From Aequorivita sp. (lineage in GTDB: Bacteria; Bacteroidota; Bacteroidia; Flavobacteriales; Flavobacteriaceae), in contig JAGXGE010000030.1 of assembly GCA_024637015.1 (NCBI GenBank), positions 1-64,000 on the forward strand: a stretch of DNA of 64,000 bases, given 5' to 3'. The position numbers and the translations under genes are program-made. Shown one piece after another: positions 9,732 through 32,092 of this stretch; the stretch's first letter is position 1; each line of letters opens with the position of its first letter. The notes beneath the pieces were generated by a model. It did not search any database. It had not been told where the DNA came from and saw only the letters and a program-made list of their open reading frames with translations.

Positions 9732-10747
9732 CATATTCTTGGTAGTTGTTCTCCAATTAAAGGAGTTACAATTCTTTTTCCACCAATTGTATTGTGCATT
9801 ATGACCTTGGAAGGGTGATCACCAGTAACTTCACCAATGCAGCTAGTGTTTTTTCCTTTACTATCCTTGCGCATTAATGCTACCACTTCATTTTCAATAC
9901 TAGAATCTACAATAGTTATAAAGACGCCTTCATTGGCTACATACATTGGGTCTAGTCCTAAAATTTCACAAGCCGCTGCAACTTGTTTTTCCAAAGGAAT
10001 TTTTGATTCATAAATAGCAATTCCTTTATTAATATCGGTTGCTATTTCAGAAAGCACACTCGATAAGCCACCCCGTGTTGGATCTCTAAAAAAATGTATT
10101 TTGTTTCCGAAAACATCTAAAAGTTTGTTGGTCAAAAAATTTAAATTAGTGGTATCGCTCACAATATCCGATTCAAATTCAAGCCCTTGCCGTTCAGACA
10201 TAATAGCCATTCCATGCTGTGCAATTGAACCGTTAATAATTATTTTATCGCCAACTTTTATGTTGTCAGTTGCAATGCTTCCCTTTGGATGCACTTCTCC
10301 GAAACCCGTGGTATTGATAAATATTTTATCTCCTTTTCCTCGTTCTACCACTTTTGTGTCTCCAGTGATTATCAGAACACCACTGGCATCAGCAGCTTTT
10401 TTTATAGCGTTTACAATAGTAACGAAATCCGCTATCTTTAAACCTTCCTCAATTATAAAAGCGAGGGATAAATATTTTGGTACCGCTCCGCACATGGCCA
10501 CGTCGTTCACGGTTCCATGAACGGCTAGCTCCCCAATATTACCGCCTTTAAAAAAAATAGGTGAAACCACAAAACTATCAGTAGAGATAGCAATTTCACC
10601 TTTAAACTTCACGATAGAACCATCATGTTTTTGATTTAAGTATGGATTATTAAATGTTTTAAATATGATGTTATCCAACAAATCCCGAGTCATCCTGCCA
10701 CCACTTCCGTGGCCTAAATTGATGTTTTCTAATGCTAAATTGTCCAT
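9728..10747 (-). CDS. hypE: Hydrogenase maturation factor HypE (carbamoyl dehydratase)
   Basis: HypE dehydrates the thiocarbamate on its own C-terminal cysteine to a thiocyanate, which supplies the CN ligands of the [NiFe] centre. The C-terminus is the diagnostic PRIC. The N-terminus has GHGSGGRMTRDL, and the AIRS-type ATP-binding fold shows GDTKVVERGKGD and DPTRGGLSSVLSEIA. At 339 aa it has normal length. It follows hypD with no gap (TAA directly followed by ATG) and is the last gene of the minus-strand hydrogenase operon. Confidence 0.96.
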   Translation of the reverse strand: MDNLALENINLGHGSGGRMTRDLLDNIIFKTFNNPYLNQKHDGSIVKFKGEIAISTDSFVVSPIFFKGGNIGELAVHGTVNDVAMCGAVPKYLSLAFIIEEGLKIADFVTIVNAIKKAADASGVLIITGDTKVVERGKGDKIFINTTGFGEVHPKGSIATDNIKVGDKIIINGSIAQHGMAIMSERQGLEFESDIVSDTTNLNFLTNKLLDVFGNKIHFFRDPTRGGLSSVLSEIATDINKGIAIYESKIPLEKQVAAACEILGLDPMYVANEGVFITIVDSSIENEVVALMRKDSKGKNTSCIGEVTGDHPSKVIMHNTIGGKRIVTPLIGEQLPRIC

Positions 10748-11845
10748 TTATTCTGAAGATATTAAAGTGTCCGAAAAGTGATAATATGCTGCACAGGCCC
10801 CTTCTGAAGAAACCATTGGCGCCCCTAAAGGATTTGAAGGATTACAGGCTTTTCCAAATTGACTGCACTGATGCGGTTTTTTAATTCCCCTTAAAACCTC
10901 TCCGGCAATACAATCACTGTTTTCTGGTGCATTGATGTTGCTTATGCCAAATTTTGATTCGGCATCAAAATCCTTGTAAGCAGCTTTTAATACATAGCCA
11001 CTGTTTGGGATCTCACCAATTCCACGCCATGCTCTATTGCCTATTTGGAATACTTCATTAATAACATTGATGGCTGCTTTATTGCCTTCCTCTTTAACAA
11101 CTCTAGCATACTGATTTTCTACTTGGTGCAATCCCTTCTCTAATTGAGCTACAGCCATATAAATTCCTTGAACCAAATCCAGTGGTTCAAAGCCTGTAAC
11201 TACGATGGGAATTTTATATTTTTCAGCCATAGGCTTATATTCCTCATAACCCATAATTGCACATACATGGCCTGCACCTAAAAATGCATTTATAGTACAA
11301 AATTTATCATCCAATATGGCTTCCATTGCAGGAGGTACTAGTACATGTGAAACTAGAATGGAATAATTTTTAAGCCCTTCTTTTTGAGCATGAAGCACTG
11401 ATAGAGCATTAGCTGGGGCTGTGGTTTCAAACCCTACTGCAAAAAATACCACTTCTTTATCTGGGTTTTCCCTAGCCACTTTTACGGCTTCCAAAGGAGA
11501 ATATAAAATGCGTAAATCACCACCATTTGCCTTTGCCTCCAATAAACTTTTTTTGCTCCCTGGCACGCGAATCATATCTCCAAAAGAGCAAACAATTACA
11601 TCATTTTCCAATAACTCAATGGCTTTGTCTATTAAATTTAGTGGGGTAACACATACGGGGCAACCTGGTCCATGAATCATTTGTACTTTCTCAGGTAAGA
11701 GGTCTAATATTCCATTTTTCACCAAACCATGCGTTTGGCCACCACATATTTCCATGATGTTCCAATTCCTTGTTACGGTCTTTTCAATAAGCCTTAAATA
11801 GCTTTTGGTTGCCTCTAAATTTCTATATTCACTTAAATACTTCAT
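10748..11845 (-). CDS. hypD: Hydrogenase maturation factor HypD
   Basis: HypD, with HypC, is the scaffold on which the Fe(CN)2CO moiety is assembled. The sequence shows CGGQTH (Cys34), HGPGCPVC (Cys62 and Cys65), the GFETTAP motif, and C-terminal cysteines in a [4Fe-4S] cluster region ([18 protein letters not shown]). At 365 aa it has family length. It lies 3 bases downstream of hypF and abuts hypE. Confidence 0.96.
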
Positions 11846-11848
11846 CTC

Positions 11849-14128: not shown

Positions 14129-14645
14129 GTAATTGGGCTGTCAATTCAAATATTTTTTTAATAACCTCGGGTATGGCCTCTTTTACCTTTGCACTTAATT
14201 CAATAGTCATAGGGATAACTTCCTGAATAGAAACTGTAAATAATTGAATATCGGGGTTTGCTTCTGTAATATAAACAGCCTCTATCATATCCTTTAACCC
14301 AACATCGTGAACACTCAAGGCAGTCGGAAAATCGGATGCAAATTTAGGGCGTAACAAAGAAATTGTCCCTGCTTCTTTTCCATCCATGGTAGCATCTATA
14401 AATATTACATTTTTATAGGCTTCAAAACAATTAAGCAATAAAAAACCACCTGTTCCACCATCTAAAATATCGACATAATCAGGCAATTCCAATTTTGCCA
14501 TTTCCTGTATTACATGAACACCAACCCCCTCATCACCCATTAGATAATTGCCCACACCCAATATCAAAATGCTATTGGACTTGTCTTTCTCAAAAAAGAA
14601 GGCATCACTACTTATTGCTACAGGAGTTCTATCTTGTTTAGTCAT
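14121..14645 (-). CDS. hupD: Hydrogenase maturation endopeptidase (HupD/HyaD family)
   Basis: This nickel-dependent checking protease removes the C-terminal tail of the large subunit after Ni insertion. Motifs are ILGVGNYLMGDEGVGVH (the Glu/Asp metal ligand), DGGTGGF, IDATMDG, and SVHDVGLKD with the histidine ligand. It has 174 aa, with about 25 residues before the core that are a little longer than usual. It lies between hupC and hypF and overlaps hypF. Its substrate would be the 20-residue tail of HupL. Confidence 0.93.
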   Translation of the reverse strand: MTKQDRTPVAISSDAFFFEKDKSNSILILGVGNYLMGDEGVGVHVIQEMAKLELPDYVDILDGGTGGFLLLNCFEAYKNVIFIDATMDGKEAGTISLLRPKFASDFPTALSVHDVGLKDMIEAVYITEANPDIQLFTVSIQEVIPMTIELSAKVKEAIPEVIKKIFELTAQLHD

Positions 14646-14673
14646 TGCTTCTATTTTGGGAATGTTTTTGAAT

Positions 14674-15423
14674 TTAGCTTTCTTGCTCAGTAGTTTTGGG
14701 TAGGTTCTCTGAAACGGATTCTTTTGTTTTATCCTTTAAACGGTCTTTATCAACAAACTTATAACCTCCAAACATAGATGAAACTTCACCTTTTCCTTCC
14801 AACCAGTCGTGGTAGAAAACCAAATACACATGTATTAAGACAAATAGAATGAAGATCCAAGTAGAAAAATGATGTATCGTTCTAACTATGAAATCTCCTC
14901 CCAGTAATGGCACCACCCATGTGAACAATTGAGGTAGCCACCAGTTAGACATATCTGCATAAAGGGCAAAGCCTGTAAACACTTGTACTAAAGAAATGAC
15001 GAAAAGAGCTATATAAGAAATAGCGGCAACACTATTATGACCTATACTCTCATCTTTAATGTCTGGCTTTTCTTCCTTTTGTAAAAAAACGTCAACCTTA
15101 ATTACGTGTAAAAAGTTTTGCCACATTTTTTTTGTAAAAGGCCAAAAGGCGCGCCAGCTTGCATATTTATTACCGACAAAAGACCAGTATATTCTTAAAA
15201 TCATGTTGAAGAAGAAAATATAGGCAGCGGTAAAGTGTATAAAACGTACTGTTCCAAACCAATAACTTTCACTAGCGTCCATATTTAATAAAATAGCTGG
15301 TGGATCTGAAATAATCAAGCCTGTTACTGCAAGCACTGTAACTGCCAAGACATTAATCCAATGAAAGATTCGTACGGGCAGCTCCCAAACGTAAACTCTT
15401 TTATAATTTCTAGTTTTCATCAT
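14674..15423 (-). CDS. hupC: Ni/Fe-hydrogenase b-type cytochrome subunit
   Basis: This membrane cytochrome b anchors the hydrogenase and passes electrons to the quinone pool. The 249-aa protein has four predicted membrane segments, and histidines suited to haem binding occur in FHWINVLAV near the N-terminus, in RFIHFTAAYIFFF, and in HHFSTWIFILFVLIHVYLVFYHDW. An insertion around residues 100-135 (KKMWQNFLHVIKVDVF...) lies between segments two and three. It sits 11 bases after hupL. Its presence identifies the enzyme as a membrane-bound respiratory uptake hydrogenase. Confidence 0.94.
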   Translation of the reverse strand: MMKTRNYKRVYVWELPVRIFHWINVLAVTVLAVTGLIISDPPAILLNMDASESYWFGTVRFIHFTAAYIFFFNMILRIYWSFVGNKYASWRAFWPFTKKMWQNFLHVIKVDVFLQKEEKPDIKDESIGHNSVAAISYIALFVISLVQVFTGFALYADMSNWWLPQLFTWVVPLLGGDFIVRTIHHFSTWIFILFVLIHVYLVFYHDWLEGKGEVSSMFGGYKFVDKDRLKDKTKESVSENLPKTTEQES

Positions 15424-15434
15424 GACCTTTAATA

Positions 15435-17168
15435 TTATATATCACAACTTGAAATATTTTGAACTTTAGAAATATGATTTCCATGTTCGTCATATAGATG
15501 GACTGCACAAGCCAGACAAGGATCAAAAGAGTGAATAGTTCTAATAATTTCCAGTGGTAGTTCAGTATCTGCTACGGGAGTTCCCAATAAAGCAGATTCA
15601 TAAGAGGACCGCTGTCCTTTCGGATCTCTAGGGGAGGCATTCCAAGTACTTGGCACTACCAACTGATAGTTTTCAGTCTTTTTATCTTTAATTCGTATCC
15701 AATGCCCTAATGCACCTCTAGGTGCTTCAGCAAAACCAACCCCTTTGGATTCTTGAGCCCATTTCTCGGGTTCCCATTTTTCCATATTGGCCATTCGGCT
15801 ATCGCCACTTTTAATATTCTGTAGCAAGGTCTCATAGAATTCAAGGGTCCAATTGGCTACCAATTGAGTTTCAATACCTCTTGCCGCCGTTCTTCCTAAG
15901 GTAGAAAACAAAGCATCAACGGGAACCTCTAAATGAGCTAGGGCGCCATTGACCACTTCTTGAATTTCTTTATTTCCTCGGCCATAACCTACTAGCAATC
16001 TAGCCAATGGGCCAACTTCCATAGGTTTTCCACGCCATCTAGGAGTTTTTACAAAACTGTATTTCTGATTTACATCCAGTTGGTCATAAGGAGGTTTGGG
16101 GCCAGAATAATTAATTTTGGTTACCCCGTCCCAAGGGTGTTTTCCTTTGTCTTTGCCTTCTTCGTAATCGTCATACCAAGAGTTGTTTACGAACTCTTCA
16201 ATATCATCATTTCTATGGTTAACATCATAAATTTTGGATAAGTCCCGATTTAAAATGATGCCTTGGGGAAACTTAAAGTTTGTAACATCATTATATCCAT
16301 TTATGGGGAATTCTCCATAGGACATATAATTTCCAAATCCTTTGCCTATCCCAGCCCAGTCTTTGTAAAAAGACGCTATAGCTAAGAGATCAGGGATATA
16401 AACTTGTTCTACAAATTCTTTTGCTTGTTTTAATAACTTCCCAACATATTCTAAGCGGTCTATATTAATACCTCCAATATCATCTGTATTAATGGCACAG
16501 GCCATGCCACCAACCAAGTAATTAGGATGCGGATTTTTTCCACCAAAAATGGTGTGCACTTTTACAATCTCCTTTTGCCAGTCCAGGGCTTCCAAATAAT
16601 GAGCCACAGCCATTAAATTAACTTCTGGAGGCAATTTCATTTGAGGGTGCCCCCAATATCCATTGGCAAAAATTCCCAATTGACCACTTTCTACGAACCT
16701 TGTGATTCGTTTTTTTATGTCAGAGAAATAGCCTGGAGAACTTTTTGGCCATTTAGAAATACTTTGTGCAAGCTCAGATGTTTTTACAGGATCTGCTTTT
16801 AATGCATTAACTACATCTACCCAGTCTAAAGCATGGAGATGATAAAAATGCACCGTGTGATCATGCATATATTGGGTTCCAAGCATTATGTTTCGAACCA
16901 TTTCTGCATTTGGTGGCACTTCAATTCCAATAGAATCTTCCACAGCTCTCACTGAAGCCAAGGCATGAACTGTGGTGCAAACACCACAGGCACGTTGTAC
17001 GAACGCCCAGACATCTCTGGGGTCTCTGCCTACAACAATGTTTTCAAGACCTCGCACCATAGGGCTGGAACTATAGGCATCGGTTATGATACCATTTTTA
17101 ACTTCAACTTCTATTCTTAAGTGACCTTCAATTCGTGTGATTGGATCAACTACTATTCTATTTGCCAT
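15435..17168 (-). CDS. hupL: [NiFe] uptake hydrogenase large subunit
   Basis: This is the catalytic subunit, which oxidises H2 at the Ni-Fe centre on the periplasmic side. The L1 motif RACGVCTTVH provides Cys61 and Cys64. The L2 motif DPCLACAVH provides Cys551 and Cys554 and ends at His557. The following 20 residues (LYDEHGNHISKVQNISSCDI) are the tail expected to be cut by HupD after His557. The GGxNPHPN-like FGGKNPHPNYLVGG motif is also present. At 577 aa it is full length. It has no signal peptide of its own and would be co-exported with the Tat-targeted small subunit. Confidence 0.97.
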   Translation of the reverse strand: MANRIVVDPITRIEGHLRIEVEVKNGIITDAYSSSPMVRGLENIVVGRDPRDVWAFVQRACGVCTTVHALASVRAVEDSIGIEVPPNAEMVRNIMLGTQYMHDHTVHFYHLHALDWVDVVNALKADPVKTSELAQSISKWPKSSPGYFSDIKKRITRFVESGQLGIFANGYWGHPQMKLPPEVNLMAVAHYLEALDWQKEIVKVHTIFGGKNPHPNYLVGGMACAINTDDIGGINIDRLEYVGKLLKQAKEFVEQVYIPDLLAIASFYKDWAGIGKGFGNYMSYGEFPINGYNDVTNFKFPQGIILNRDLSKIYDVNHRNDDIEEFVNNSWYDDYEEGKDKGKHPWDGVTKINYSGPKPPYDQLDVNQKYSFVKTPRWRGKPMEVGPLARLLVGYGRGNKEIQEVVNGALAHLEVPVDALFSTLGRTAARGIETQLVANWTLEFYETLLQNIKSGDSRMANMEKWEPEKWAQESKGVGFAEAPRGALGHWIRIKDKKTENYQLVVPSTWNASPRDPKGQRSSYESALLGTPVADTELPLEIIRTIHSFDPCLACAVHLYDEHGNHISKVQNISSCDI

Positions 17169-17178
17169 GATATCATTT

Positions 17179-18306
17179 TTAAGAATCTAATGTTTGTTCA
17201 TTTTTTTTACCTCTCGCAATATGGTCGGAAACTTCTTTTCGTTTTGTGATTGCTGCAGAAACAGCATGTACTCCTATAGCTCCAGCAAGTACACCTGCGG
17301 CTACTTTACCAATTGTATCTGCTGAACTTTCAATGCCAAACCCGTGTAATCCGGTCATGCGTTCATATATAGGTCCATTGTCCCAAAAATTTTCTTCACT
17401 ACAACCAAAGCACCCATGGCCTGATTGTATTGGGTAACTAATACCGTTGTTCCATTTTATGGTTCCACATGCGTTATAAGTCATTGGTCCTTTGCACCCT
17501 ACTTTGTATAGGCAGTATCCTTTTTTTGCATTCTCATCATCAAAAGATTCAACAAATAATCCTGCATCATAATAGGGTCTTCTGTAGCAAGTATCGTGAA
17601 CGCGTTTTGAATAAAATGCTTTAGGTCTTCCCAGTCCGTCGAGTTCAGGAAATTTTCCAAAGGTTATGATATGAAGAATTACACCAGCCATAACCTCGCC
17701 TATTGGAGGACAACCTGGAACTCTTATGATTGGTTTGTTTTTTATAATCTTATGGATTGGTGTGGCGTCAGTTGGGTTTGGATAAGCGGCTTGCACACAA
17801 CCATTGGAGGCGCAACTGCCCCAAGCTATTATTGCTTTAGCTCCAGCGGCTGATTCTTCCAAAACATCCTTTGCAGACCTTCCTGCAATACAACAATAGT
17901 TACCGTCATCTCCCAAAGGAACGGATCCTTCAACACAAAGAATGTATTCACCATTATACTTTTCCATAGTCGCTTTTTTAGCAGCTTCTGCTTGATGTCC
18001 CGACGCTGCCATTAAGGTAAGGGTATAATCCAACGATATCTTATCTAAGATAATATCTGCAACAATTGGATGGTCTGAGCGTATGAATGATTCGCTACAA
18101 CAAGTGCATTCTTGAAAATGCTCCCAAATTACAGGCACTCTAGTGGTAGTCTCTAATGCCTTGGCAACTTGCCCAAGCATACTAGTTTCTAAACCCATGT
18201 ATGCCGTTATATAGGTGACAAATTTCATAAAATCACGTCTACTATACCCCTGATCTATGATATGCTCGTAGTACGTTTTGTCCTTAACTTCATTTTTTGT
18301 GGCCAT
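17179..18306 (-). CDS. hupS: [NiFe] uptake hydrogenase small subunit, oxygen-tolerant type
   Basis: This is the electron-transfer subunit with three Fe-S clusters. A Tat signal (SRRDFMKF at residues 22-29) is followed by a hydrophobic stretch. The proximal cluster motif is ECTCC (Cys67, Cys69, Cys70), which contains the extra cysteine in place of the usual Gly. A second extra cysteine aligns at 138 in DGNYCCIAG. Known O2-tolerant membrane hydrogenases use this pair to build a [4Fe-3S] cluster. Distal and medial cluster ligands are seen in HDTCYRRPYYDAG, CLYKVGCKGP and CFGCSEENFW. A C-terminal membrane helix lies near residues 325-350 (AAGVLAGAIGVHAVSAAI). It is the first gene of the operon. 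Confidence 0.96.
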   Translation of the reverse strand: MATKNEVKDKTYYEHIIDQGYSRRDFMKFVTYITAYMGLETSMLGQVAKALETTTRVPVIWEHFQECTCCSESFIRSDHPIVADIILDKISLDYTLTLMAASGHQAEAAKKATMEKYNGEYILCVEGSVPLGDDGNYCCIAGRSAKDVLEESAAGAKAIIAWGSCASNGCVQAAYPNPTDATPIHKIIKNKPIIRVPGCPPIGEVMAGVILHIITFGKFPELDGLGRPKAFYSKRVHDTCYRRPYYDAGLFVESFDDENAKKGYCLYKVGCKGPMTYNACGTIKWNNGISYPIQSGHGCFGCSEENFWDNGPIYERMTGLHGFGIESSADTIGKVAAGVLAGAIGVHAVSAAITKRKEVSDHIARGKKNEQTLDS

Positions 18307-23940: not shown

Positions 23941-24277
23941 CTATAGGGTAGCCATCAGCTACAACAAACTCTTTATAATGGAACCTATAAAATACCCTGC
24001 TTCCTTTCTTTTATTAAAATAAGCTGTCGCTTTTGTACTATTCCAAATAAAGAAGGATTATTAATTTAATGCCATTATTTGTAGGTATTTAAAAGCAAAG
24101 GATTTCTCTCCTCTTAAAGATTTGCTTGGCTTGCATTGTTTAGTATATACTACAAAGAACTTCCCATTTAATACGTACAAGGTTTGTTGATTGCCGTCAA
24201 CAAGCAATATGAATTAATGGAGTATGCCCAAAATCCAAATTGAAATAGAGTAGGCACTAACCTATAATCAAGTAATC
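23941..24277. other. Gene-free stretch upstream of the 755-aa protein
   Basis: No gene, clear hairpin or repeat is seen. It is long enough to hold the promoter of the 755-aa gene. A long 5' leader is possible. Confidence 0.4.
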
Positions 24278-26545
24278 ATGGCAAAAAATCCTGACTACCC
24301 GAACAGAAATTTCAAAATCAAAGTAGATTTTGAACAACCCCCAGAAAGAGATTTTCCACTTATCGGTTTTCTTTTTCATTGCAGGGGTAAGTTGCTTCAA
24401 TGGCAATATGTGAAAGACAATATCTTGGAATTCAATCTAGAGAAATTGCCTAAGGAAAACAGGGAAATGAAAATAAATCCTGAGCAGCTCAGGCTATTTA
24501 TCGCTCCCGCTTCCGACAAAAAAATCACCCGAATAAACACTGCCGAACAGTTGCAAAGCTATAAGGCATACGAGGCATTGATAAAAATGGACGCCAACCA
24601 AGGCTTCTCTATTTTGCCCATTCCTGAGGTGTTATCCCGCTTCTGGCTTTGGTGCAAATGCCGCGTAAGTGGAAAAGTTTCAAAATGGTTCCACACGGGC
24701 AACAATTGGGAAGATCGCGCAGTTTGCAGGGCGCGTGTACATATTTGTGAGATTGATCCTATTTTGTATTGGATCAATAGAATACCGGATCACATTATCG
24801 CCAAGGTGCCAGATGCCATATTGAAGCCAGTATTTAAATTCCCGATTCCCATTCCAGATCCTGAGCCTTTTCAACGGATTGAACGCTTTCCAATGATGGA
24901 AGGGGGAAATGAAGAGAATATTTTCAAAACGCAATCGCTTCAAGGGATACGTAAGGAAACCATTTCCAAATTACCCGAATTGGGTCCTGAAATAAAACAG
25001 CAATTTGCCTCTGGCAACCTGAATACTATTAGGGAAGCTATAGCAAAAAATTATATGTTGTTGCATCCATGGTTCTGCTTTTGGCCGTGGTGGTGGCCTT
25101 ATTTTTACCGTTGTAAGGAATTGGCGGTAGTAGAAACCAATGCCAGCGGTAGGTTTGAAAAGAGTGTTTACTATAACTGCTTTGGCGATAAGCCTGATAT
25201 TTATATTTGGGTTGAATATATGATCAATGGGGTTTGGACCACAGTTTACAAACCGCCCATCCCTTGCAATACCCATTGGAACTACGCTTGTGGTACCGAT
25301 ATAAACATTCATCTTACTCACGAGATGGTTGCAGGCGATTGCTGCTGCGATTGCCATTTGCCAGGGCAAAATGTCTTTTTAAGGTCTGTTGGATATACCA
25401 GCGTTTCCCATATAAAACAGACGCATCAACTGCTACCACCCCCAATGCAATCTGTAGCTTATGATAGGATTGGTTTAACGGATGCAGGCGCATCTGGAGA
25501 CAGTTTCTTAATTACCACAGTAGATGATTATAAAAGACCATTTGGCGGGATTCCGACTTTTAGAATGGGCTTCGGCAATGATTTGCCAAATTCCAATATG
25601 TATTATTATCGTTGGAGTTATAGGAAAATAAAAAGTACCGATTTGTCTCCCGAAACTTCGTATGAGCCATTGGAGCCTATGGGCGCCACGTTTAGTAAGG
25701 GATATGACTATATCTATGAGGATTCAAACGGCGATGAACAATGGGGTGCAGACAGTGTGAAACTTGGTCCTTTTACAGAGGGCCCGAATGATAACTTATA
25801 TATTATACCGCCGGAACTGCCAGAGATGGCGCCGTTCAATATATCTGAGGATTCGCATCCGCATTGGCATCAGCAAACGTATAATATGAATACGATGACC
25901 TTTGATTCCACGAAGCTTGCGGGAGATGGGTTATACCAATTTAAGTTGGAGCTGTTCGACAAGGGAGGCAATCTTTTACAAAATCTTCCAAGGACAACCT
26001 TCAAAACGCCAAGACACGACAACGCGAGTTTTAGTGAAAATGCACCCGATATTCTATTGGAAAATCCAAATTCCTCCAATGCGGATGCTTTCAATATTAT
26101 TATGCGAATAGACAACGGTCAGTGCGCAGGCGATATTTACACAGTAAATGTAGATGACGTGCCTGCTTCTTCAAACTGTTGTGGCTTCGTGAAATATAAA
26201 CCCGATGGGGAAGAAGCTGAACTTGAACTTACCTTTAAAGCAGTCCATCCCACCAATTTTGCTGAGTTTAGCTTTGGTGTGGTTAAAGGTACCTGTGGGG
26301 GAGTACCCATAGCCAATGCAAAAGGAATGGTTATAGATAGTGCCTCTGGCTATACCCTAGACACGACTACGGGAATTTACAGCAAAAGTTTTACCCCTTC
26401 AGAATTGTTGGGTGAATGTTATGTAGATGGAACTGGAAAAGCCGCATTTGCTGAAACATTGCGCATAATTTCTACGGCTACGGACGGTAAATCGCGCGTT
26501 GCCAGAGATTACGGCAGAACAGTGGCATTTGCACTTGAACCCTAA
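24278..26545 (+). CDS. Unrecognised 755-aa Cys/Trp-rich protein
   Basis: I do not recognise the family. There is no signal peptide or membrane segment. The N-terminal 100 residues are polar, and residues 130-230 are rich in Pro, Trp and Ile. Residues 265-285 form an aromatic cluster (WFCFWPWWWPYFYRC), followed by a segment VETNASGRFEKSVYYNCFG...IYIWVEYMINGVW that has the look of a carboxypeptidase-regulatory/transthyretin-like beta-sandwich. Residues near 355-370 contain DCCCDCH, a possible metal-binding or disulfide cluster. The C-terminal half has several beta-rich stretches. A strong terminator follows at 26571-26604, so the gene may be monocistronic. It lies downstream of the AraC regulator. 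No function is proposed. Confidence 0.75.
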   Translation: MAKNPDYPNRNFKIKVDFEQPPERDFPLIGFLFHCRGKLLQWQYVKDNILEFNLEKLPKENREMKINPEQLRLFIAPASDKKITRINTAEQLQSYKAYEALIKMDANQGFSILPIPEVLSRFWLWCKCRVSGKVSKWFHTGNNWEDRAVCRARVHICEIDPILYWINRIPDHIIAKVPDAILKPVFKFPIPIPDPEPFQRIERFPMMEGGNEENIFKTQSLQGIRKETISKLPELGPEIKQQFASGNLNTIREAIAKNYMLLHPWFCFWPWWWPYFYRCKELAVVETNASGRFEKSVYYNCFGDKPDIYIWVEYMINGVWTTVYKPPIPCNTHWNYACGTDINIHLTHEMVAGDCCCDCHLPGQNVFLRSVGYTSVSHIKQTHQLLPPPMQSVAYDRIGLTDAGASGDSFLITTVDDYKRPFGGIPTFRMGFGNDLPNSNMYYYRWSYRKIKSTDLSPETSYEPLEPMGATFSKGYDYIYEDSNGDEQWGADSVKLGPFTEGPNDNLYIIPPELPEMAPFNISEDSHPHWHQQTYNMNTMTFDSTKLAGDGLYQFKLELFDKGGNLLQNLPRTTFKTPRHDNASFSENAPDILLENPNSSNADAFNIIMRIDNGQCAGDIYTVNVDDVPASSNCCGFVKYKPDGEEAELELTFKAVHPTNFAEFSFGVVKGTCGGVPIANAKGMVIDSASGYTLDTTTGIYSKSFTPSELLGECYVDGTGKAAFAETLRIISTATDGKSRVARDYGRTVAFALEP

Positions 26546-26604: not shown

Positions 26605-26679
26605 GCTCACATTTCAAAATTCAATCGATGTAATAGTATAACCAATAACTTTTATTATGTACAGCTTATCGGTCTAACC

Positions 26680-26895
26680 TTGGCTTGGTTTAAGGAAACG
26701 GTAAATAACGATACCTTTATTGGCTCTACCGGACAGATAACAAAGGAGATGCTAGAAAATTACAATATGCTGGCAGATAGCTATGTAACCAATACCGGTA
26801 AATTTTTTAATATGATGGAGGATCTCGCAGAGCCTTCAAACAAAAAAGCAAAAAAGAAGAAAAAGGATGAAGGTATGTCTGCTCCATTGTTTTGA
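26680..26895 (+). CDS. Small Lys-rich hypothetical protein, start uncertain
   Basis: A 71-aa frame begins at TTG 26680 (LAWFKETVNNDTFIGS) and ends in a Lys-rich tail before GMSAPLF. The amino acid composition looks coding, but no ATG is available. A frame-shifted ATG at 26657 reads MYSLSV and then stops, so the 5' end may be disrupted, or TTG may be used. The family is not recognised. It sits directly before the displaced ssrA terminator, facing it. Confidence 0.4.
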   Translation: MAWFKETVNNDTFIGSTGQITKEMLENYNMLADSYVTNTGKFFNMMEDLAEPSNKKAKKKKKDEGMSAPLF

Positions 26896-26924: not shown

Positions 26925-26946
26925 AACCACACCTGTCGGTGTGGCT
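26925..26946 (-). terminator. Displaced original ssrA terminator
   Basis: The stem CCACACC-tgtc-GGTGTGG is flanked by AAAA on the left. Read on the minus strand it becomes CCACACC-gaca-GGTGTGG followed by TTTTATT, starting just after the CCA end of the left att copy. This is the layout of a tmRNA 3' end and its terminator, now separated from the functional ssrA by the mobile element. It may also stop the small gene on the plus strand. Confidence 0.75.
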
Positions 26947-26954
26947 TTCTGATG

Positions 26955-26977
26955 GTGGAGCCGGAGGGAATCGAACC
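26955..26977 (-). repeat. Left attachment repeat (old 3' end of ssrA)
   Basis: This 23-base segment matches 31696-31718 at 22 positions; the mismatch is A26970 versus T31711. On the minus strand it reads as the tmRNA T-arm and acceptor 3' strand, and continues into an encoded CCA. It marks the left boundary of the element. Confidence 0.88.
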
Positions 26978-27103
26978 TATCTAATTGAAATTATTTTTTT
27001 TCACAATAAAATTATGTAAAAACCTTTTATTAATAACTGTTTACGAGTATTTGAAAAATATCTATAATTAGAATACGTAATACTTAGATAGTATAAATAC
27101 GTA

Positions 27104-27126
27104 AAATGTCGGGAAGATGTCGGGAA
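27104..27126 (+). repeat. Left arm-type direct repeat of the element
   Basis: A 23-base sequence identical to 31616-31638. It contains two tandem copies of ATGTCGGGAAG. It lies 126 bases inside the left att repeat and 49 bases before the integrase start. Two copies of AATACGTAA (27072-27080 and 27096-27104) precede it and could be excisionase sites. Confidence 0.8.
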
Positions 27127-27142
27127 GAATATTAACATTTGC

Positions 27143-27150
27143 TATATTTG
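27143..27150 (+). promoter_or_regulatory. Integrase promoter -7 box
   Basis: TATATTTG is an exact match to the Bacteroidota TAnnTTTG box, 25 bases before the integrase ATG. The expected -33 region overlaps the arm-type repeat at 27104-27126, so integrase binding could repress its own promoter. Confidence 0.65.
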
Positions 27151-27175
27151 AAGTGTTCAAAAATGATATTTTCTA

Positions 27176-28492
27176 ATGGCAACAATAAAATACTTCACAA
27201 AAGGAGCCGGAAACCCCAGTACAATTCATTTAAGATTGGTACACGGCCGTAAATTCGACTTTACAAAATCTACTCAGCTTTTAATTGATCCTAAGTACTG
27301 GAATAATAAAAAAGGATTGGTTAAACAGATAGCGGACTTTCCCGATAAGGTAAACGTACAAAATGACCTCAACGATTTAAGGAGCCATATTTTAAATGTT
27401 TTCAATGATAGTTATACCTCCGGCCAGTTAATTAATAGTGATTGGCTAAAAAGTACAATAGAGAGCTTTTTTAATCAAAATGAGAATGTAGATTTTAACT
27501 ATATAGTTGACTACGGAAATTATTTTGTAAAGAATTTAAAAAACTCAATTCAGTCAAACGGTAAAATTGGGGTAACTCCGGCAACCTCAAAAAAATATCA
27601 AACCATAGTAAATAAATTAAAAGAGTTTGAAACCTATAAGAAAAAACGTTTAAAGGTTACAGATATTAATTTGGCTTTTCATAAAGATTTTATTTATTTC
27701 CTTCACGATATACAGTTACTCAGCTACAATACAACCGGGCGTTATTTGAAATTTGTAAAAACTATTGTGAAAAGTGCTAAAGGTTACGGCCTAAAAATTA
27801 GTGAGGATATTGATAAAAAGGAATTTAGGCAACCGAAGGAACCCACGACCTTTATAACACTTTCAGAAAGTGAAATCGAAACTATTTTTAAACACGACTT
27901 TAGTAAAACGCCTTATTTAGAAAACGCCCGGAATTGGTTAATAATTGGCGTATGGACCGGAGCACGTGTAAGTGATTTATTGAAATTTACAGTTGGAAAT
28001 ATACACAATGGCTTTATAGAATATACGGCTAAAAAAACCGGACAAAAAATTGTCCTCCCTTTACACTCACAAGTAATTGAGATTTTGAACAACCTCAACG
28101 GCCAATTTCCACGACCTATTTCAGACCAAAGGTTTAACGATTATATAAAATTAGTATGTAAAGACGTTGAACTAAAAGAGCTTGTTAATGGTGCAAAAAA
28201 GAAAAAATTGAAACCGAAAGTTTATCGGAAAGTAAAGGGGGAATATGAAAAATGGGAATTGGTAAGTAGTCATATTTGCCGGAGATCTTTTGCAACAAAC
28301 CATTACGGCAAATTACCCACTCCGGTATTAATGGCTATTACAGGCCACACCACAGAAAAAATGTTTTTACAGTACATTGGCAAAACCGCAATGGATAATG
28401 CTGAGGTATTAAATAGCTTTTGGCAAGACCAGGAACACAAAAAGAATAAAACCGCAAAACTGAAATTAATTAAAACCGGAACCAATGAATGA
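27176..28492 (+). CDS. int: Tyrosine recombinase (integrase) of the ssrA element
   Basis: This is a site-specific recombinase, expected to integrate and excise the element at ssrA. The N-terminal arm-binding domain (about residues 1-90) has the IHLRLVHGRKFDFTKSTQLLIDPKYWN pattern of Bacteroidota integrases. A SAM-like core-binding domain covers about 105-210. Catalytic residues are Arg264 (GARVSDL), His366 and Arg369 (HICRRSFATN), His391 (GHTTEKMF) and Tyr400 (LQYIG). At 438 aa it is complete. Its stop overlaps the next small ORF by 8 bases (ATGAATGA). It lies beside the left att repeat. Confidence 0.96.
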   Translation: MATIKYFTKGAGNPSTIHLRLVHGRKFDFTKSTQLLIDPKYWNNKKGLVKQIADFPDKVNVQNDLNDLRSHILNVFNDSYTSGQLINSDWLKSTIESFFNQNENVDFNYIVDYGNYFVKNLKNSIQSNGKIGVTPATSKKYQTIVNKLKEFETYKKKRLKVTDINLAFHKDFIYFLHDIQLLSYNTTGRYLKFVKTIVKSAKGYGLKISEDIDKKEFRQPKEPTTFITLSESEIETIFKHDFSKTPYLENARNWLIIGVWTGARVSDLLKFTVGNIHNGFIEYTAKKTGQKIVLPLHSQVIEILNNLNGQFPRPISDQRFNDYIKLVCKDVELKELVNGAKKKKLKPKVYRKVKGEYEKWELVSSHICRRSFATNHYGKLPTPVLMAITGHTTEKMFLQYIGKTAMDNAEVLNSFWQDQEHKKNKTAKLKLIKTGTNE

Positions 28493-28631
28493 TTTAAACA
28501 ATAAAGGAATTAAAGGTTTAATAAGTACTTTAGAACGTATTGAACGAGAAAAAAAAGAAAAGGAATTAAGATTTTATTTGAAAAATATAGGGGTAAAATT
28601 AAACACTTTCCCAATAATTTATTTAAACTAA
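28485..28631 (+). CDS. 48-aa hypothetical protein overlapping the integrase stop
   Basis: ATG 28485 overlaps the int stop by 8 bases, and the frame ends at TAA 28631. The product is a charged helix (ISTLERIEREKKEKELRFYL) with a short hydrophobic tail. It starts MNDL, as does the next gene. No family is recognised. Translation coupling to int is the main support. Confidence 0.5.
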   Translation: MNDLNNKGIKGLISTLERIEREKKEKELRFYLKNIGVKLNTFPIIYLN

Positions 28632-28652
28632 ATTTTTTAAAAACTGGATACA

Positions 28653-28991
28653 ATGAATGATTTAACCACAATTAGAGGATTTTACGAAACTTATTTAATG
28701 CTTTTACCCCAGTACGAAACCCAAAAGGAATGTTTTGATTTTCTTAATGCTGAGGTTAAAAAAATCAATGGCGAAAAAATGTTTTTCAATTTATGTGATT
28801 TTCAAATTCGTACCATTGGAAAAGGATTGGAAACAATACCGGACTTTTGCAAAACGTATTTTAATTTATTGCCGTATTTCCCGAGCGCAAAAGAATGTTT
28901 TGAATATCTACACGGAATTTCAGAAACGAGGGCAGAAAACGCCCTATTTTTAGATTATCGGGATTTTAAAGAGCGCACTTGGAGTGCATAA
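28653..28991 (+). CDS. 112-aa protein made of two tandem repeats
   Basis: The protein is an internal duplication. The first unit has YETYLMLLPQYETQKECFDFL (residues 11-31) and the second CKTYFNLLPYFPSAKECFEYL (66-86), sharing TYxxLLP....KECFxxL; each is followed by a similar EKMFFNLCDFQIRT / ENALFLDYRDFKERT tail. No signal peptide or membrane segment is seen. The family is not recognised. It lies in the same direction as int and ends just before the 273/260-aa gene. The repeats could form a small helical binding domain; this is inference. Confidence 0.65.
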   Translation: MNDLTTIRGFYETYLMLLPQYETQKECFDFLNAEVKKINGEKMFFNLCDFQIRTIGKGLETIPDFCKTYFNLLPYFPSAKECFEYLHGISETRAENALFLDYRDFKERTWSA

Positions 28992-29022
28992 AGTTTTAAT
29001 TGTTCAAAATGATTTAGGCAAA

Positions 29023-29805
29023 ATGGCAAATAATGAGATTAGAAATAAATTTTTTGATCTACTCAACAATAGAATTAATTTAAAAGTTGCTGAGGATTAT
29101 AAAAATAGCATAGTTGAAAACGCATTATATAAATATGCAGTTGACAATAACGCCCGGATTAACTTTTTAGAAACTTTAAAAGAGTACGATATTTTGCCAC
29201 ATTGGAACCCCTATACAATAAAGGGGGTTCATTTTGAAAATGGAACTTGTGAATTAATAGAAAGTGAAATTAATGAGCTATTAAATGAATACCGGGTTAA
29301 TCTTTCTAATAATGATTTTGGGGAATTTCAAAACGAACTGGATAAAGAAAAACCGTTAGGCCTAAAAAGTTACTTTCGTTTGATAATGGCCGTTAATGAT
29401 TGTTTGGAAATACAAATAATCAATGAAATGATTAGGGAGCTTCGAGTAAACCAAACCGCCCTTAAAACCCCCGAAAAGAATTTTAACCGTATTGTATTTG
29501 AAACTTCGGAAAGTGAATGTTTTTTCAACTTCTTAATTTCTGAATGGATTGTAAAAGAAGAAAATAAAAAAACGGCAATTAGTTTTATTTTTAGGGAAAT
29601 GTGGTATAAGAATACCGATAGTGAACTAAAGTATAAGATCGTATGTACCTCAACGAGATTTGCGGAATATTGGAATAAAGAATACAAAGAAATTTTTGAA
29701 AAACTGGATCCAAAAAATCCAAAGTTTAAAAATGACTTTACGAATACATATTATAGAACTTCATTTAATGACTATTTAAAAAGTTTTGATAGTAGGGAGC
29801 AATAG
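29023..29805 (+). CDS. Unrecognised 260-aa protein of the ssrA element
   Basis: The product is a polar protein rich in Asn, Glu and Lys and mostly helical in appearance, with no signal peptide or membrane segment. Recognisable stretches such as EYDILPHWNPYTIKGVHFENG and SESECFFNFLISEWIVKEE do not point to a known family. I chose ATG 29023. A GTG at 28984 would extend it by 13 residues and overlap the previous gene by 8 bases, which is also possible. A 13-mer TGTTCAAAATGAT lies just before it. It ends 79 bases before the HTH gene. Confidence 0.65.
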   Translation: MANNEIRNKFFDLLNNRINLKVAEDYKNSIVENALYKYAVDNNARINFLETLKEYDILPHWNPYTIKGVHFENGTCELIESEINELLNEYRVNLSNNDFGEFQNELDKEKPLGLKSYFRLIMAVNDCLEIQIINEMIRELRVNQTALKTPEKNFNRIVFETSESECFFNFLISEWIVKEENKKTAISFIFREMWYKNTDSELKYKIVCTSTRFAEYWNKEYKEIFEKLDPKNPKFKNDFTNTYYRTSFNDYLKSFDSREQ

Positions 29806-29817
29806 GAGATTAAAAAC

Positions 29818-29861
29818 CCCTATTTGTCGCCTATTGTCGCCTATTTGCTAAAATACATTTG
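29818..29861 (+). promoter_or_regulatory. Repeats and promoter ahead of the HTH gene
   Basis: Near-tandem copies CCTATTTGTCG, CCTATTGTCG and CCTATTTGC (about 29819-29848) cover the expected -33 region. They are followed by an exact -7 box TACATTTG (29854-29861), with TTG 29834-29836 standing 17 bases ahead of it. The repeats are placed as an operator for a regulator, perhaps the HTH protein itself. Confidence 0.5.
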
Positions 29862-29883
29862 TCCAAACATTAAATACTTTGTT

Positions 29884-30165
29884 ATGGACAATACAACATT
29901 AGTAACTGGAACTACTCCCGAAAAATTAACTGAAAACATTCTACAAGGGGTAAGGAAAGAAATTGAAGATTTAAAACAATACTTTCAACCAAAAGAGCCG
30001 GACGATCTTTTAACACGCAAAGAAACAAGTGAGCTATTAAAAATTTCCCTTGTTTGTTTACACGACTGGTGCAACAAGGGAATACTTAAACACTACAAAA
30101 TAGGGAACCGTACGTATTTCAAACGGAAAGAGATCAACGAGGTATTGTGTAATTCAAATAAATAG
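29884..30165 (+). CDS. HTH protein of the excisionase (HTH_17) type
   Basis: A 93-aa DNA-binding protein. After a helical lead of about 40 residues it has LLTRKETSELLKISLVCLHDWCNKGILKHYKIGNRTYFKRKEINEVL, which is a MerR-like/HTH_17 winged HTH as in excisionases and AlpA-type activators. ATG 29884 was chosen over the upstream TTG because a -7 box lies at 29854-29861. In small integrative elements such proteins direct excision or control the int or rep promoter. Which role applies here cannot be told from the sequence. Confidence 0.8.
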   Translation: MDNTTLVTGTTPEKLTENILQGVRKEIEDLKQYFQPKEPDDLLTRKETSELLKISLVCLHDWCNKGILKHYKIGNRTYFKRKEINEVLCNSNK

Positions 30166-30169
30166 AGTT

Positions 30170-30652
30170 ATGCAAACCGGCAATTTGAGATATTTCCGGG
30201 GGATCTATGCCCTCAAAAAAAGTACTGGCGAAAATCCTATAAAGGAATTTGAGTTGATCAATACCGATATTCTAAAGGATTGTAAACTATTCACAAATAT
30301 AGTCCGTATTGAAAATGATAATGGTTACCACGACCGGAGCCGTTATTTTGAATACTGGCTATTCCTAAGAAACGAAACCAACTGGAAACGGTGCTATAAG
30401 TCCGGCCTTGCCAAAACTCAAAATGATTTTGTATTTGAGGGTAATTTTTCGCGGCCGGTAATACTGGATCAAAAGACGGCCAAAGGCAAAGATTTTGAAA
30501 ATCCTCAGCATTTTATTATTGCTCAGTCAATAAACACCTGGAATACTTTTGTACTGGATATATTCCCGAACTTTTACCCAGTCCAAAAGAAACTGCAAAC
30601 TGCAATACTCAAAGAACATAACTACTTACTAAGAATAAAAAAGGGAGCCTAA
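30170..30652 (+). CDS. Unrecognised 160-aa protein of the ssrA element
   Basis: It starts 4 bases after the HTH gene, so the two are probably co-transcribed. The protein looks like a mixed alpha/beta globular domain (YHDRSRYFEYWLFLRNETNWKRC, AQSINTWNTFVLDIFPNFYP), without a signal peptide or membrane segment. I do not recognise a family. A hairpin overlaps its stop codon. Roles such as modulation of replication or host interference are possible but unsupported. Confidence 0.65.
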   Translation: MQTGNLRYFRGIYALKKSTGENPIKEFELINTDILKDCKLFTNIVRIENDNGYHDRSRYFEYWLFLRNETNWKRCYKSGLAKTQNDFVFEGNFSRPVILDQKTAKGKDFENPQHFIIAQSINTWNTFVLDIFPNFYPVQKKLQTAILKEHNYLLRIKKGA

Positions 30653-30662
30653 AACAGCTCCC
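30643..30662 (+). terminator. Hairpin at the end of the 160-aa gene
   Basis: GGGAGC (30643-30648) / GCTCCC (30657-30662) with an 8-base loop overlaps the stop codon. It has an A-run before it and no T-run after it (TAATTTG), so it may be a weak or minus-strand-directed terminator. Confidence 0.4.
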
Positions 30663-30684
30663 TAATTTGTTCAAAATGATTGTA

Positions 30685-30700
30685 CAAACTGGCAAGTTTG
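30685..30700 (+). promoter_or_regulatory. Palindrome at the rep-like promoter
   Basis: CAAACT-ggca-AGTTTG is a perfect inverted repeat. Its right arm supplies a TTTG that fits a -33 element; a -7-like TACAATTT starts 17 bases later (30717), just before the ATG at 30725. A bound repressor would block the promoter of the Rep-like gene. Confidence 0.45.
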
Positions 30701-30724
30701 ATACAGTCACAAAGATACAATTTA

Positions 30725-31333
30725 ATGGAAGAAACAAAACAATATAGATTTAGTATTTATATTAATCAAAGAGCAATTAAACAATTTTTAGAAATCAATA
30801 ATTACCCTTTGGAATATATGACTTATGAGAAAATTTGTATTTTATCATTTTTGGCAGATAGTTTTAAAGAAACAAATACCGGACTTAAAAAAAAGAAGAT
30901 TAAGGGGAAAATGTATTTATACTTTTCGGATAAATTGATTTGTGATAATTGTATTTTTTTGTCAATCAAAAAAAGAACTGTAAAATTACGTATTTCTGAA
31001 TTAGTGGGATTGGAATTTGTAGAACGAATAGTTATAAATAACCGCCGGTATCTAAGGCTTTCCGATAGCTTCACAGAATTATGCGAGTCTAATAACTCCT
31101 GGCTTACACCCCTTCAGTTTTTAATGAAATTTAAACCTAATTTCTTTAAAAGTCTTAAAAGTGAATTTGAGCCACATTTGGATAATTTTAAAGATTTAAC
31201 AGAACGTTTTAATGATAGTTACAATATAAAAGGAAAAGAATATGATTGTGATAAAATCTATTATGAATTGAGCTCATATTTGGGAAAATGTTTAACTAAT
31301 AGAAATAAAGGTATGCAAGGGGGTGCATACTAA
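30725..31333 (+). CDS. Winged-helix protein, putative replication initiator
   Basis: A 202-aa protein with a winged-helix look over residues 25-115. A helical start (MTYEKICILSFLADSF) is followed by a strand pair (KMYLYFSDKLICDNCIFLSI), a recognition-like helix (KKRTVKLRISELVGLEFVERI) and a wing (INNRRYLRLSDSF). This order is seen in initiator and HTH_36-type proteins of mobile elements. The C-terminal 90 residues are unassigned. Its last codons and stop are part of an iteron array, which is the main reason to suspect a Rep role. I chose ATG 30725; a TTG at 30680 would extend it through the operator. Confidence 0.55.
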   Translation: MEETKQYRFSIYINQRAIKQFLEINNYPLEYMTYEKICILSFLADSFKETNTGLKKKKIKGKMYLYFSDKLICDNCIFLSIKKRTVKLRISELVGLEFVERIVINNRRYLRLSDSFTELCESNNSWLTPLQFLMKFKPNFFKSLKSEFEPHLDNFKDLTERFNDSYNIKGKEYDCDKIYYELSSYLGKCLTNRNKGMQGGAY

Positions 31334-31377
31334 GTATGCAAGGGGGTGCATAGTAAGTATGCAAGAATTTGCAACAT
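31311..31377 (+). repeat. Iteron-like array overlapping the Rep-like stop codon
   Basis: Two 23-base units (31311-31333 and 31334-31356) differ at one base, and a third, shorter copy follows (31357-31377). Each full unit contains the inverted repeat TATGCA-agggGG-TGCATA. The first unit encodes the C-terminus KGMQGGAY minus its first residues and includes the TAA stop. The array has the form of replication iterons next to an initiator gene. Confidence 0.75.
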
Positions 31378-31615
31378 ATTATATATATAAGAAATAAAAA
31401 AATAAAATTAGCGAGAATTATAATTCGCCCTCTTTTTAAATTGAATTTAAAAGGGGTATGGGGTAAAAAACTTTGAGTATTGCCGGGCGTGTACATCGCT
31501 ATTATCTTTTCTTTTTACTCACTTGAATATTTTAAAGGGGGGGGTTATATGTTATAAGTAGTATAGAAGAAATGAAAAATAGCTATTATAAACCTCAACT
31601 TATTAGATTTTACTG
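31378..31615. other. AT-rich palindromic region, candidate replication origin
   Basis: After the iterons comes a run of A/T (TATTATATATATAAG). It is followed by a perfect 12-bp palindrome GAATTATAATTC (31415-31426) and a 9-bp inverted repeat TTTTAAATT-g-AATTTAAAA (31434-31452). No gene is seen. An A/T-rich unwinding element beside iterons is the usual origin layout; here it is inference. A run of eight G near 31540 is unexplained. Confidence 0.5.
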
Positions 31616-31638
31616 AAATGTCGGGAAGATGTCGGGAA
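31616..31638 (+). repeat. Right arm-type direct repeat of the element
   Basis: It is identical over 23 bases to 27104-27126, including the two tandem ATGTCGGGAAG units. It lies 57 bases inside the right att repeat. The pair fits arm-type integrase sites on both sides of the attachment core in the excised circle. Confidence 0.8.
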
Positions 31639-31645
31639 AAAGAAA

Positions 31646-31681
31646 AACGCCCTATCTACGAATTACTGTAAATAGGGCGTT
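31646..31681 (-). terminator. Element-supplied terminator for ssrA
   Basis: AACGCCCTAT (31646-31655) pairs with ATAGGGCGTT (31672-31681). On the minus strand the stem ends in GGGCGTTTTTCTTTTT, a T-rich tail, and lies 15 bases after the tmRNA 3' end. It replaces the displaced native terminator at 26925-26946. Confidence 0.8.
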
Positions 31682-31695
31682 CTTATAAATTAATT

Positions 31696-31718
31696 GTGGA
31701 GCCGGAGGGATTCGAACC
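31696..31718 (-). repeat. Right attachment repeat within the functional ssrA
   Basis: These are the 3'-terminal bases of the intact tmRNA gene, matching the left copy at 26955-26977 in 22 of 23 positions. Beyond it the element side reads AATTAATTTA, so the encoded CCA of the left copy is absent here. Confidence 0.88.
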
Positions 31719-32092
31719 CTCGTCCAAACGCGCAATTATACTGCCTTCTACATGCTTAGTTTTCATTTAGGTTTTCGTGGGATTGCCGGTCGAAAACTAC
31801 CAACGCACCCCTTATCTTCACTTGAGCTTCACCCTGCCATCAAAGCACTAACAGAGCTAGGTTTACTTTTACGAAGCCACTATATCAACCGCCGCAAACC
31901 AAGGCCGTTGAGTGACTTCCTGCTTGCCCACCTTGTGGGCCGAGGCACATCCTACTGTAATTCGGATTATGCAGCTAGGGCGTAGTTATTCTCGCCGTTT
32001 AAAAAGTGTGAAATATGATATTAACGAGCTATATCCCAGCGCTCGACATGCTTACAATACAATTAGACCCGCTGTCAAAACCAGTCGGCCCC
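31697..32092 (-). ncRNA. ssrA: Transfer-messenger RNA (tmRNA)
   Basis: tmRNA rescues stalled ribosomes by trans-translation. The minus strand starts GGGGCCGACTGGTTTTGACA (from 32092) and ends GGTTCGAATCC...CGGCTCCA; the acceptor strands GGGGCCG and CGGCTCC pair over 7 bp with one G-U. The tag reading frame at 31996-31967 encodes GENNYALAA followed by TAA, which is the typical Bacteroidota tag. About 396 nt is a normal size. A -7 box (TATCTTTG, minus strand 32156-32149) lies upstream. The 3' end has been rebuilt by the integrated element and does not encode CCA. Confidence 0.95.

Follow-up and report, generated by a model that had tools for sequence, protein, structure and literature searches.

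A very small integrative element with a putative replication module at ssrA in Aequorivita, and related elements in the Flavobacteriaceae

Genes and ends of the element

The window considered here is a stretch of 64,000 nucleotides from contig JAGXGE010000030.1 of Aequorivita sp. (Flavobacteriaceae; assembly GCA_024637015.1), a genome of 3.2 Mb in 39 contigs, and at positions 26955–31718 it holds a small integrated element whose target is ssrA, the gene for the transfer-messenger RNA (tmRNA). The element is bounded by a direct repeat, the attachment (att) copies attL (26955–26977) and attR (31696–31718), which are identical at 22 of 23 positions, the right copy being the 3' end of the tmRNA gene (31696–32092, reverse strand; ARAGORN and Rfam RF00023). 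Inside these copies lie paired arm sites: an 11-bp tandem repeat, ATGTCGGGAAG in two copies, forms the left site (27104–27128), and an identical tandem repeat forms the right one (31616–31638), so that the arm sequence AAATGTCGGGAAGATGTCGGGAA is present at both element ends, from 27104 and from 31616. When the two 300-bp ends were compared, the best match scored 23 against a maximum of 13 in 200 Markov pairs, and the shared arm of 23 nt compares with a maximum of 12 in 223 control pairs (300 pairs drawn, pairs less than 400 bp apart removed). Next to attR the element carries a terminator-like hairpin of 17 pairs (31643–31684, reverse strand; RNA fold −24.2 kcal/mol, z −8.2), with which it supplies ssrA with a new terminator and the gene is kept complete. 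A terminator-like hairpin (CCACACC/GGTGTGG; 26927–26944, forward strand, from a terminator scan) that has been displaced from ssrA lies just outside the left end; a comparable hairpin immediately adjoins ssrA at congeneric sites, for example L067 and L068.

Seven open frames, all on the forward strand, lie between the att copies. The first encodes a complete tyrosine integrase of 438 aa (27176–28492), placed by Pfam, tree and alignment, with Phage_int_SAM_5 and Phage_integrase domains both above the Pfam cut-offs, and its alignment shows the residues R, K, HxxR, H and Y, the catalytic set of tyrosine integrases. A frame of 48 aa (28485–28631) overlaps the integrase gene by 8 nt and has a 44-nt repeat, at 80% identity, in common with the start of the 112-aa gene that follows, and therefore may stem from a local duplication and be a leftover of that gene. 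The 112-aa protein (28653–28991) has no family match; its two halves align to each other (33%) and to single proteins of about 60 aa in relatives. The 260-aa protein (29023–29805) is the least conserved position of the element, with 14–40% identity to relatives, and an assignment of its C-terminal half to RteC was rejected because none of ten members gave an RteC match in Pfam. A 93-aa helix-turn-helix (HTH) protein (29884–30165), a putative excisionase or activator, matches HTH_17 (Pfam E 5.5e-12) as well as HTH/excisionase families in PHROGs. Directly after it comes the gene of a 160-aa marker protein, p160 (30170–30652), of no known fold, whose AlphaFold2 model (predicted local distance difference test, pLDDT, 77.6) found no match better than E 0.018 in the PDB or among viral models; no function can therefore be read from the model. 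The last frame encodes a 202-aa winged-helix protein (30725–31333), a putative replication initiator (Rep) on the grounds of its AlphaFold2 model, PDB matches and relatives.

The 112-, 260-, 160- and 202-aa proteins gave no match over cut-off in Pfam or NCBIfam and none better than E 0.024 in PHROGs or PADLOC. None of the seven proteins matched a structural, packaging or lysis family of PHROGs at E below 0.03, their library matches included no relaxase, AlpA or primase family, and none matched a terS-type packaging or capsid-redirecting family. A preliminary description of this locus, made from the sequence alone, had listed the att and arm repeats, a complete integrase, an excisionase-type HTH protein, a winged-helix Rep-like gene with iterons and four proteins that it could not place. 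The features are all found as listed, the four proteins remain unplaced, and the lack of transfer and capsid genes that it had remarked on holds insofar as none of the genes was recognised as one for packaging, a capsid or a relaxase.

Insertion at ssrA

Within the genus, ssrA was matched in 27 of 28 genomes (the window's own counted), and the other 26 loci served for comparison. When the window flanks are joined as if the element were absent, they align through the junction at 77–92% identity over 434–477 bp with seven of these 26 loci, most of this length being ssrA itself, with 32–72 bp left of the junction in each alignment; the remaining 19 loci give no alignment across the joined junction. 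It follows from the seven aligned loci that the element is a precise insertion at ssrA. Att repeats at both ends, a complete RNA gene at one end and an empty site in relatives are all present, and together with the arm positions they make firm the earlier claim of an integrated element of the Bacteroidota.

The unjoined right end aligns across its own junction with only one of the congeneric loci, L060, where positions 2498–2569 carry a right end (arm and terminator) beside ssrA that is 86% identical to that of the window, with no integrase within 2.5 kb; the site probably held such an element in the past. Searched against the 26 loci, the element proteins found only two remote integrases of other elements (25–27% identity). 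These lie in L043 and L045 just left of ssrA and in the opposite direction, and the site may therefore serve more than one type of element.

A family of related elements in the Flavobacteriaceae

A scan of genome contigs for the 160-aa family gave ten further loci, whole or damaged, in nine genera of Flavobacteriaceae: metagenome-assembled genomes of Altibacter and Urechidicola, Algibacter pacificus, Subsaxibacter, Aureibaculum marinum, Polaribacter irgensii, Flavobacterium orientale, Winogradskyella epiphytica, Oceanihabitans sediminis and Polaribacter sp. BAL334 (L004, L010 and L011 are the same loci as L017, L014 and L016 and are counted once). Compared with the window proteins, the HTH protein and p160 occur in all ten relatives, the integrase in nine (only a 105-aa fragment in L018, and none in L015) and a Rep of the window type in five. 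At the right end stands tRNA-Leu(CAA) in five relatives and ssrA in four; the tenth, L017, is a contig of 5 kb whose left end resembles, by eye, a galK end. The gene order of the window element thus recurs in other genera, at ssrA or tRNA-Leu(CAA), which is the synteny that the preliminary description had looked to as a check.

Of 10 loci tested for att repeats, the window among them, 8 have such repeats, 13 to 24 bp in length; L015 and L018 gave none. Eight elements (window included) have two ends, the set omitting L015 and L018 as damaged and L017 as its contig ends, with the site near the galK-like end. These eight measure 4343–5426 bp from att to att and sit in ssrA or tRNA-Leu(CAA), and between their att sites is the gene set with cargo and nothing larger. 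Two-ended copies occur in the cultured strains Algibacter pacificus H164, Winogradskyella epiphytica CECT 7945 and Oceanihabitans sediminis S9-10. Each of the eight has the longest string common to its ends at +149 to +155 and again at −67 to −81, counted from att; this string exceeds the control maximum (12 nt in the 223 controls) in six, equals it in L022 and is 9 nt long in L013. Arm sequence varies between elements while arm position is constant, which would fit integrases that each have their own arm specificity. The integrase gene overlaps the next small gene by 4 nt in four and by 8 nt in two of nine members checked. In the integrase tree, the users of ssrA and those of tRNA-Leu each require two label changes; the tree is neutral on a single switch between the sites, and as far as the sequences go one origin is possible.

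The nearest relative, L013, matches the window element at 92.7% over 1558 bp from att through the integrase gene, at 89.3% over 880 bp from the HTH gene to p160 and at 72.5% over 378 bp around the 112-aa gene, with no match across most of the 260-aa and Rep genes. The neighbouring host gene, the one host gene compared, is 73.1% identical over 1268 bp. An element core of 89–93% identity against 73% in the host gene argues for recent horizontal movement, and by these sequence comparisons the window element is both recently moved and mosaic. AbiH follows Rep, ahead of the right end, in L013 (Pfam E 5e-21; PADLOC E 1e-4) and in L018 (Pfam E 4e-26; no PADLOC match), and the same slot in L016 holds a 200-aa protein without a family match that is HEPN-like by eye.

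Iterons and the putative replication gene

Tandem repeats of 2.4 copies of a 23-bp unit (31311–31365) overlap the window's putative rep gene at its 3' end and are adjoined by a stretch of 77% AT (31366–31465), a candidate origin; their tandem score is 29, whereas 300 Markov sequences as long as the element reached at most 13. Arrays of 21–24 bp with a score of at least 70 in Tandem Repeats Finder (TRF) number nine in the 50.5 kb of the 11 elements (bounds of L015, L017 and L018 set by eye), against none in 102 kb of flanks, none in the window's remaining 59 kb and five in 324 kb of the 26 congeneric ssrA loci. Iterons of 22–23 bp in or near the putative rep gene are a feature of 9 of the 11 elements, and all nine arrays lie within, across the end of, or 1–296 bp after the gene next to p160. 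In Flavobacterium orientale (L019), a 59-bp tandem repeat is also present between rep and the right end (9727–10788), in arrays of 12.8 and about 3 copies with a stretch of N in between.

Grouped by blastp (E ≤ 1e-3), the genes in the rep slot fall into a first group (window, L014, L017, L018, L019 and L022), a second, loosely chained group (L013, L016, L020 and L021) and a singleton (L015), with no similarity detectable by blastp between the two groups. Iterons accompany five of six members of the first group and all four of the second, and since they stand next to two dissimilar genes in one slot, exchangeable replicons are the best explanation for the family. The slot gene of L013 matches HTH_36 (1.6e-9) and replication-initiation families of PHROGs (2e-11), that of L020 has a sub-threshold match to Phage_rep_org_N (E 0.045), and those of the window, L014, L016, L021 and L022 gave no Pfam match over cut-off. 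The layout is that of an iteron-type replicon, with AT-rich DNA and tandem repeats of about 22 bp adjoining a putative initiator gene, and the replication-like module proposed at the outset is well supported by the iterons at the rep gene.

Distant loci with the HTH–p160 pair

The p160 profile matched 3 genomes in a sample of 395 from the phylum and 12 in a sample of 395 from the order; both counts include the genome of the window, and the phylum, family and order samples overlap. Fourteen genomes have distant p160 matches only, and 13 of these loci were fetched with their context, G1118, with three stops, being left out. An HTH gene stands immediately before p160 in all 13, an integrase lies upstream in ten, and a tRNA or tmRNA gene lies downstream in nine (four tmRNA). 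The next gene encodes a protein of 309–457 aa in 12 of 13; four of these proteins were scanned and had no Pfam match over cut-off, and that of L076 was matched by its counterparts in all eight loci of one distant set. At the ends of five distant relatives examined, exact repeats of 15–21 bp join the left flank and the RNA gene in L012, L076, L077 and L079, and paired arms of 11–12 bp stand at both ends in L076, L077 and L079.

L076 is an att-bounded island of 8 kb at tmRNA, and it encodes a 624-aa protein (9341–11215, reverse-complement coordinates) related to virion proteins of Flavobacterium phage 11b (35% over 98%) and of Cellulophaga phages. This relative of a virion protein was rejected as evidence for a satellite, since it is absent from the similar element L099 and therefore counts as cargo only. 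Small proteins of L076, L077 and L078 had been taken for possible terminase small subunits, a guess that was also dropped: two had no match, and that of L077 matched HTH and replication families instead. In L095, a block of HTH, p160, Rep and p199 (9129–13418), with no integrase in view, is followed by a 1429-aa protein that by eye resembles type II Cas9.

Surroundings of the element in the window

To the right of the element, the host gene matches the N-terminal domain of alanine dehydrogenase (Pfam). In the left flank, a frame of 71 aa with a TTG start (26680–26895) may be a gene remnant; positions 26654–26846 are 70% similar to a stretch near ssrA in L064. Further left, the gene of a 755-aa protein (24278–26545) has a relative in L044, where two proteins that by eye resemble contractile-injection or phage tail-tube proteins (9751–10670) sit between it and ssrA, and the window gene may be the end of what is an injection-system cluster elsewhere in the genus. 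The window also holds an Rfam DUF805b RNA motif (24217–24256) whose score is exactly the gathering score and, on the reverse strand at 11849–18306, genes for the large and small subunits of a NiFe hydrogenase, a cytochrome b-type subunit and HypF (Pfam).

Interpretation

We consider it rather probable that the window element is an undamaged, integrated member of an unnamed family of Flavobacteriaceae elements that are very small, integrative and replication-capable. To judge from the family, its integrase would bind the arm site near each end and carry out recombination at the 23-bp core, which lies at the 3' end of ssrA. HTH, p160 and rep would be switched on by a trigger, probably infection by a phage or damage to the DNA; the HTH protein would serve as excisionase or activator, and the element would depart as a circle. 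The winged-helix protein would initiate replication at the iterons that end its own gene, a step to which both the architecture and the iterons beside two dissimilar kinds of rep in relatives point. The amplified circle or concatemer could then reach a new cell by means of a helper, most likely a tailed phage. In relatives, AbiH or other cargo occupies the space from rep to the right end, and the group may repay its hosts in phage defence. The window element may depend on a helper and be a satellite; its workings would be those of a minimal satellite or of an integrating plasmid.

Several observations weigh against this reading. Few genomes have the marker p160, namely 8 among the 397 sampled across the family and 1 of 28 in the genus, the single positive genome of the genus being the window's own. 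The window copy is without recognisable cargo, there being no open reading frame of note between Rep and the right end. TRF called no iterons in L015 and L022, and in L019 a frame of 82 aa separates rep from the iteron array. Phage records hold no relative of p160 or of the 260-aa protein. Among viral contigs (IMG/VR for p160), two scans by p160 alignment and scans with the 260-aa and 202-aa proteins found no relative, these scans requiring short exact pattern matches first, so that remote relatives may escape them. Collections of viral contigs favour known viral genes, and the missing relatives are therefore weak evidence against abundant packaging. Neither the HK97 capsid model nor the Relaxase model (PF03432), the only two helper-type models searched, found a match in the host genome, and hence no resident helper of those kinds was seen. 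Some candidates from phage collections were rejected: the only DNA match, MT837283, matches just the 3' end of ssrA and has genes that resemble a capsule locus, and the gut contigs MT840060, MT837234 and MT836782 have related integrases, with a weak HTH in two, and no p160, MT837234 reading as a mobilizable element.

A more specific form of this reading is tentative, and we would put it somewhat short of an even chance: the elements would be minimal phage satellites of the Bacteroidota that reached independently the plan of the PICMI satellites of Vibrio, here consisting of an integrase, an overlapping small excision gene, an HTH activator, p160, an exchangeable iteron replicon and defence genes in the last slot, with p160 as the hallmark. 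In that case p160 perhaps senses or subverts the helper, and the HTH–p160 pair would mark a larger superfamily in the Flavobacteriales whose members swap whole replication modules.

Other explanations appear less likely. That the winged-helix gene encodes a transcription regulator, with the 23-bp repeats as its operators and the element not replicating, is rather improbable, but the structural model does speak for it. The model (mean pLDDT 78.6; a winged helix with a helical tail) finds winged-helix DNA-binding proteins as its best PDB matches, with a best E of 4e-3 and all matches above 0.001. MarR-type regulators rank first, the N-terminal domain of a plasmid initiator (4pql) seventh and the initiator 4pt7 forty-third. 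As MarR-type proteins lead the list, the protein could be a regulator, and the fold alone does not decide. Against this stand the position of the repeats, within or after the gene and never before it in all nine arrays, and the matches of the same-slot gene of L013 to phage replication-initiation families.

It is similarly doubtful that the element is a plasmid-like one that integrates and is spread by natural transformation, vesicles or generalised transduction with no dedicated helper. The rep-like gene and the iterons do recur as a module besides integrase, HTH and p160, yet no plasmid record holds the 160-aa or the 202-aa protein, and the retention of the HTH–p160 pair in all 13 distant loci suggests a further regulated function. 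Nor do we give much credence to an integrative mobilizable element (IME) without a relaxase of its own, which would ride on a conjugative element by way of an origin of transfer (iOriT type). A similar order of integrase, HTH and replication genes, with genes that by eye are relaxase- and MobC-like, is seen in the gut contig L081. However, no element protein scanned had a relaxase match in Pfam, PF03432 is missing from the host genome as noted above, and the known IMEs of Bacteroidetes, in the extracts of PMC5704250 considered here, are few and all of the class that encodes its own relaxase.

Least probable by far is that the element is what remains, dead or in decay, of a larger prophage or island, the alternative against which the preliminary description had set its own reading: L015 without an integrase and L018 with its fragment indicate that decay does occur in the family, and L060 retains only a right end, but in the window copy the two ends and the two arm sites are present and every gene is open, and the eight two-ended members, holding only the gene set and cargo, are of near-equal length (4.3–5.4 kb) and order, unlike remnants.

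If the favoured reading of integrative, replication-capable elements is confirmed, the HTH–p160 pair would provide a genetic marker for tiny mobile islands of the Flavobacteriaceae, a family common in the sea. The group would also be a test case for the minimum number of genes that a hitch-hiking element requires, and it would offer a route of movement for AbiH and perhaps for other defence genes.

Comparison with known systems

Among the matches listed from open-access PubMed Central (PMC) papers there was no satellite family and no family of relaxase-less integrative elements from Flavobacteriaceae. The Charybdis elements, which are marine and 4.6 kb long, were rejected as relatives, as the part of the report at hand places one clade in archaea and reports no plasmid or transposon hallmark (PMC12324425). 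The 10K genomic island of Riemerella anatipestifer resembles the window element in its flavobacterial host and tyrosine integrase and excises from and integrates at a tRNA-Arg gene; it differs in its 10 kb and 12 open reading frames, the comparison resting on the description given in extracts of that paper (PMC6764341). The window element, in which no relaxase is recognised, differs from the NBU-type IMEs and is not one of them. NBU1 has tRNA-Leu as its target, and the NBU elements are larger than the window element. The likeness to them lies in the tyrosine integrase, which in NBU-type elements is accompanied by excision factors, some IMEs having replication-type genes as well (PMC5704250, in part).

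The winged-helix gene and the iterons may correspond to part of the rep, primase and origin arrangement of the PICIs, with no primase match. PICIs are much larger than the window element. According to the sections of the PICI paper available, they are alike in a specific att site, an integrase, an xis gene and a rep gene followed by an origin, of which xis, rep and origin are putative in the window element, and in phage-interference genes, to which the AbiH of the relatives corresponds, whereas no primase, divergently transcribed repressor or terminase small subunit was recognised in the window element (PMC6092414).

The closest likeness in layout is to the PICMI satellites of the Vibrionaceae, which, in the passages of that source on which we draw, average 6.7 kb, are defined by an integrase, AlpA, a primase and a fis site, and have demonstrated transfer (PMC10803314). 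As described there, PICMIs are small and free of capsid-remodelling genes, and they have an integrase followed by a small, often overlapping gene, an HTH regulator, often one gene of unknown function, a replication gene and a defence gene (PMC10803314). The present family shares this plan, with no recognised capsid-remodelling gene, a putative replication gene and, in two relatives of the window element, AbiH as the defence gene. In place of the PICMI features, the window element has HTH_17, a winged-helix Rep with iterons, and ssrA, its relatives using ssrA or tRNA-Leu. An integrase, alpA and a primase do not occur together in the window element, which has no AlpA or primase match, and the site is ssrA and not fis; the window element is not a PICMI. 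The likeness is one of layout, no homology having come to light, and the host phylum differs; the family is probably moved by a helper.

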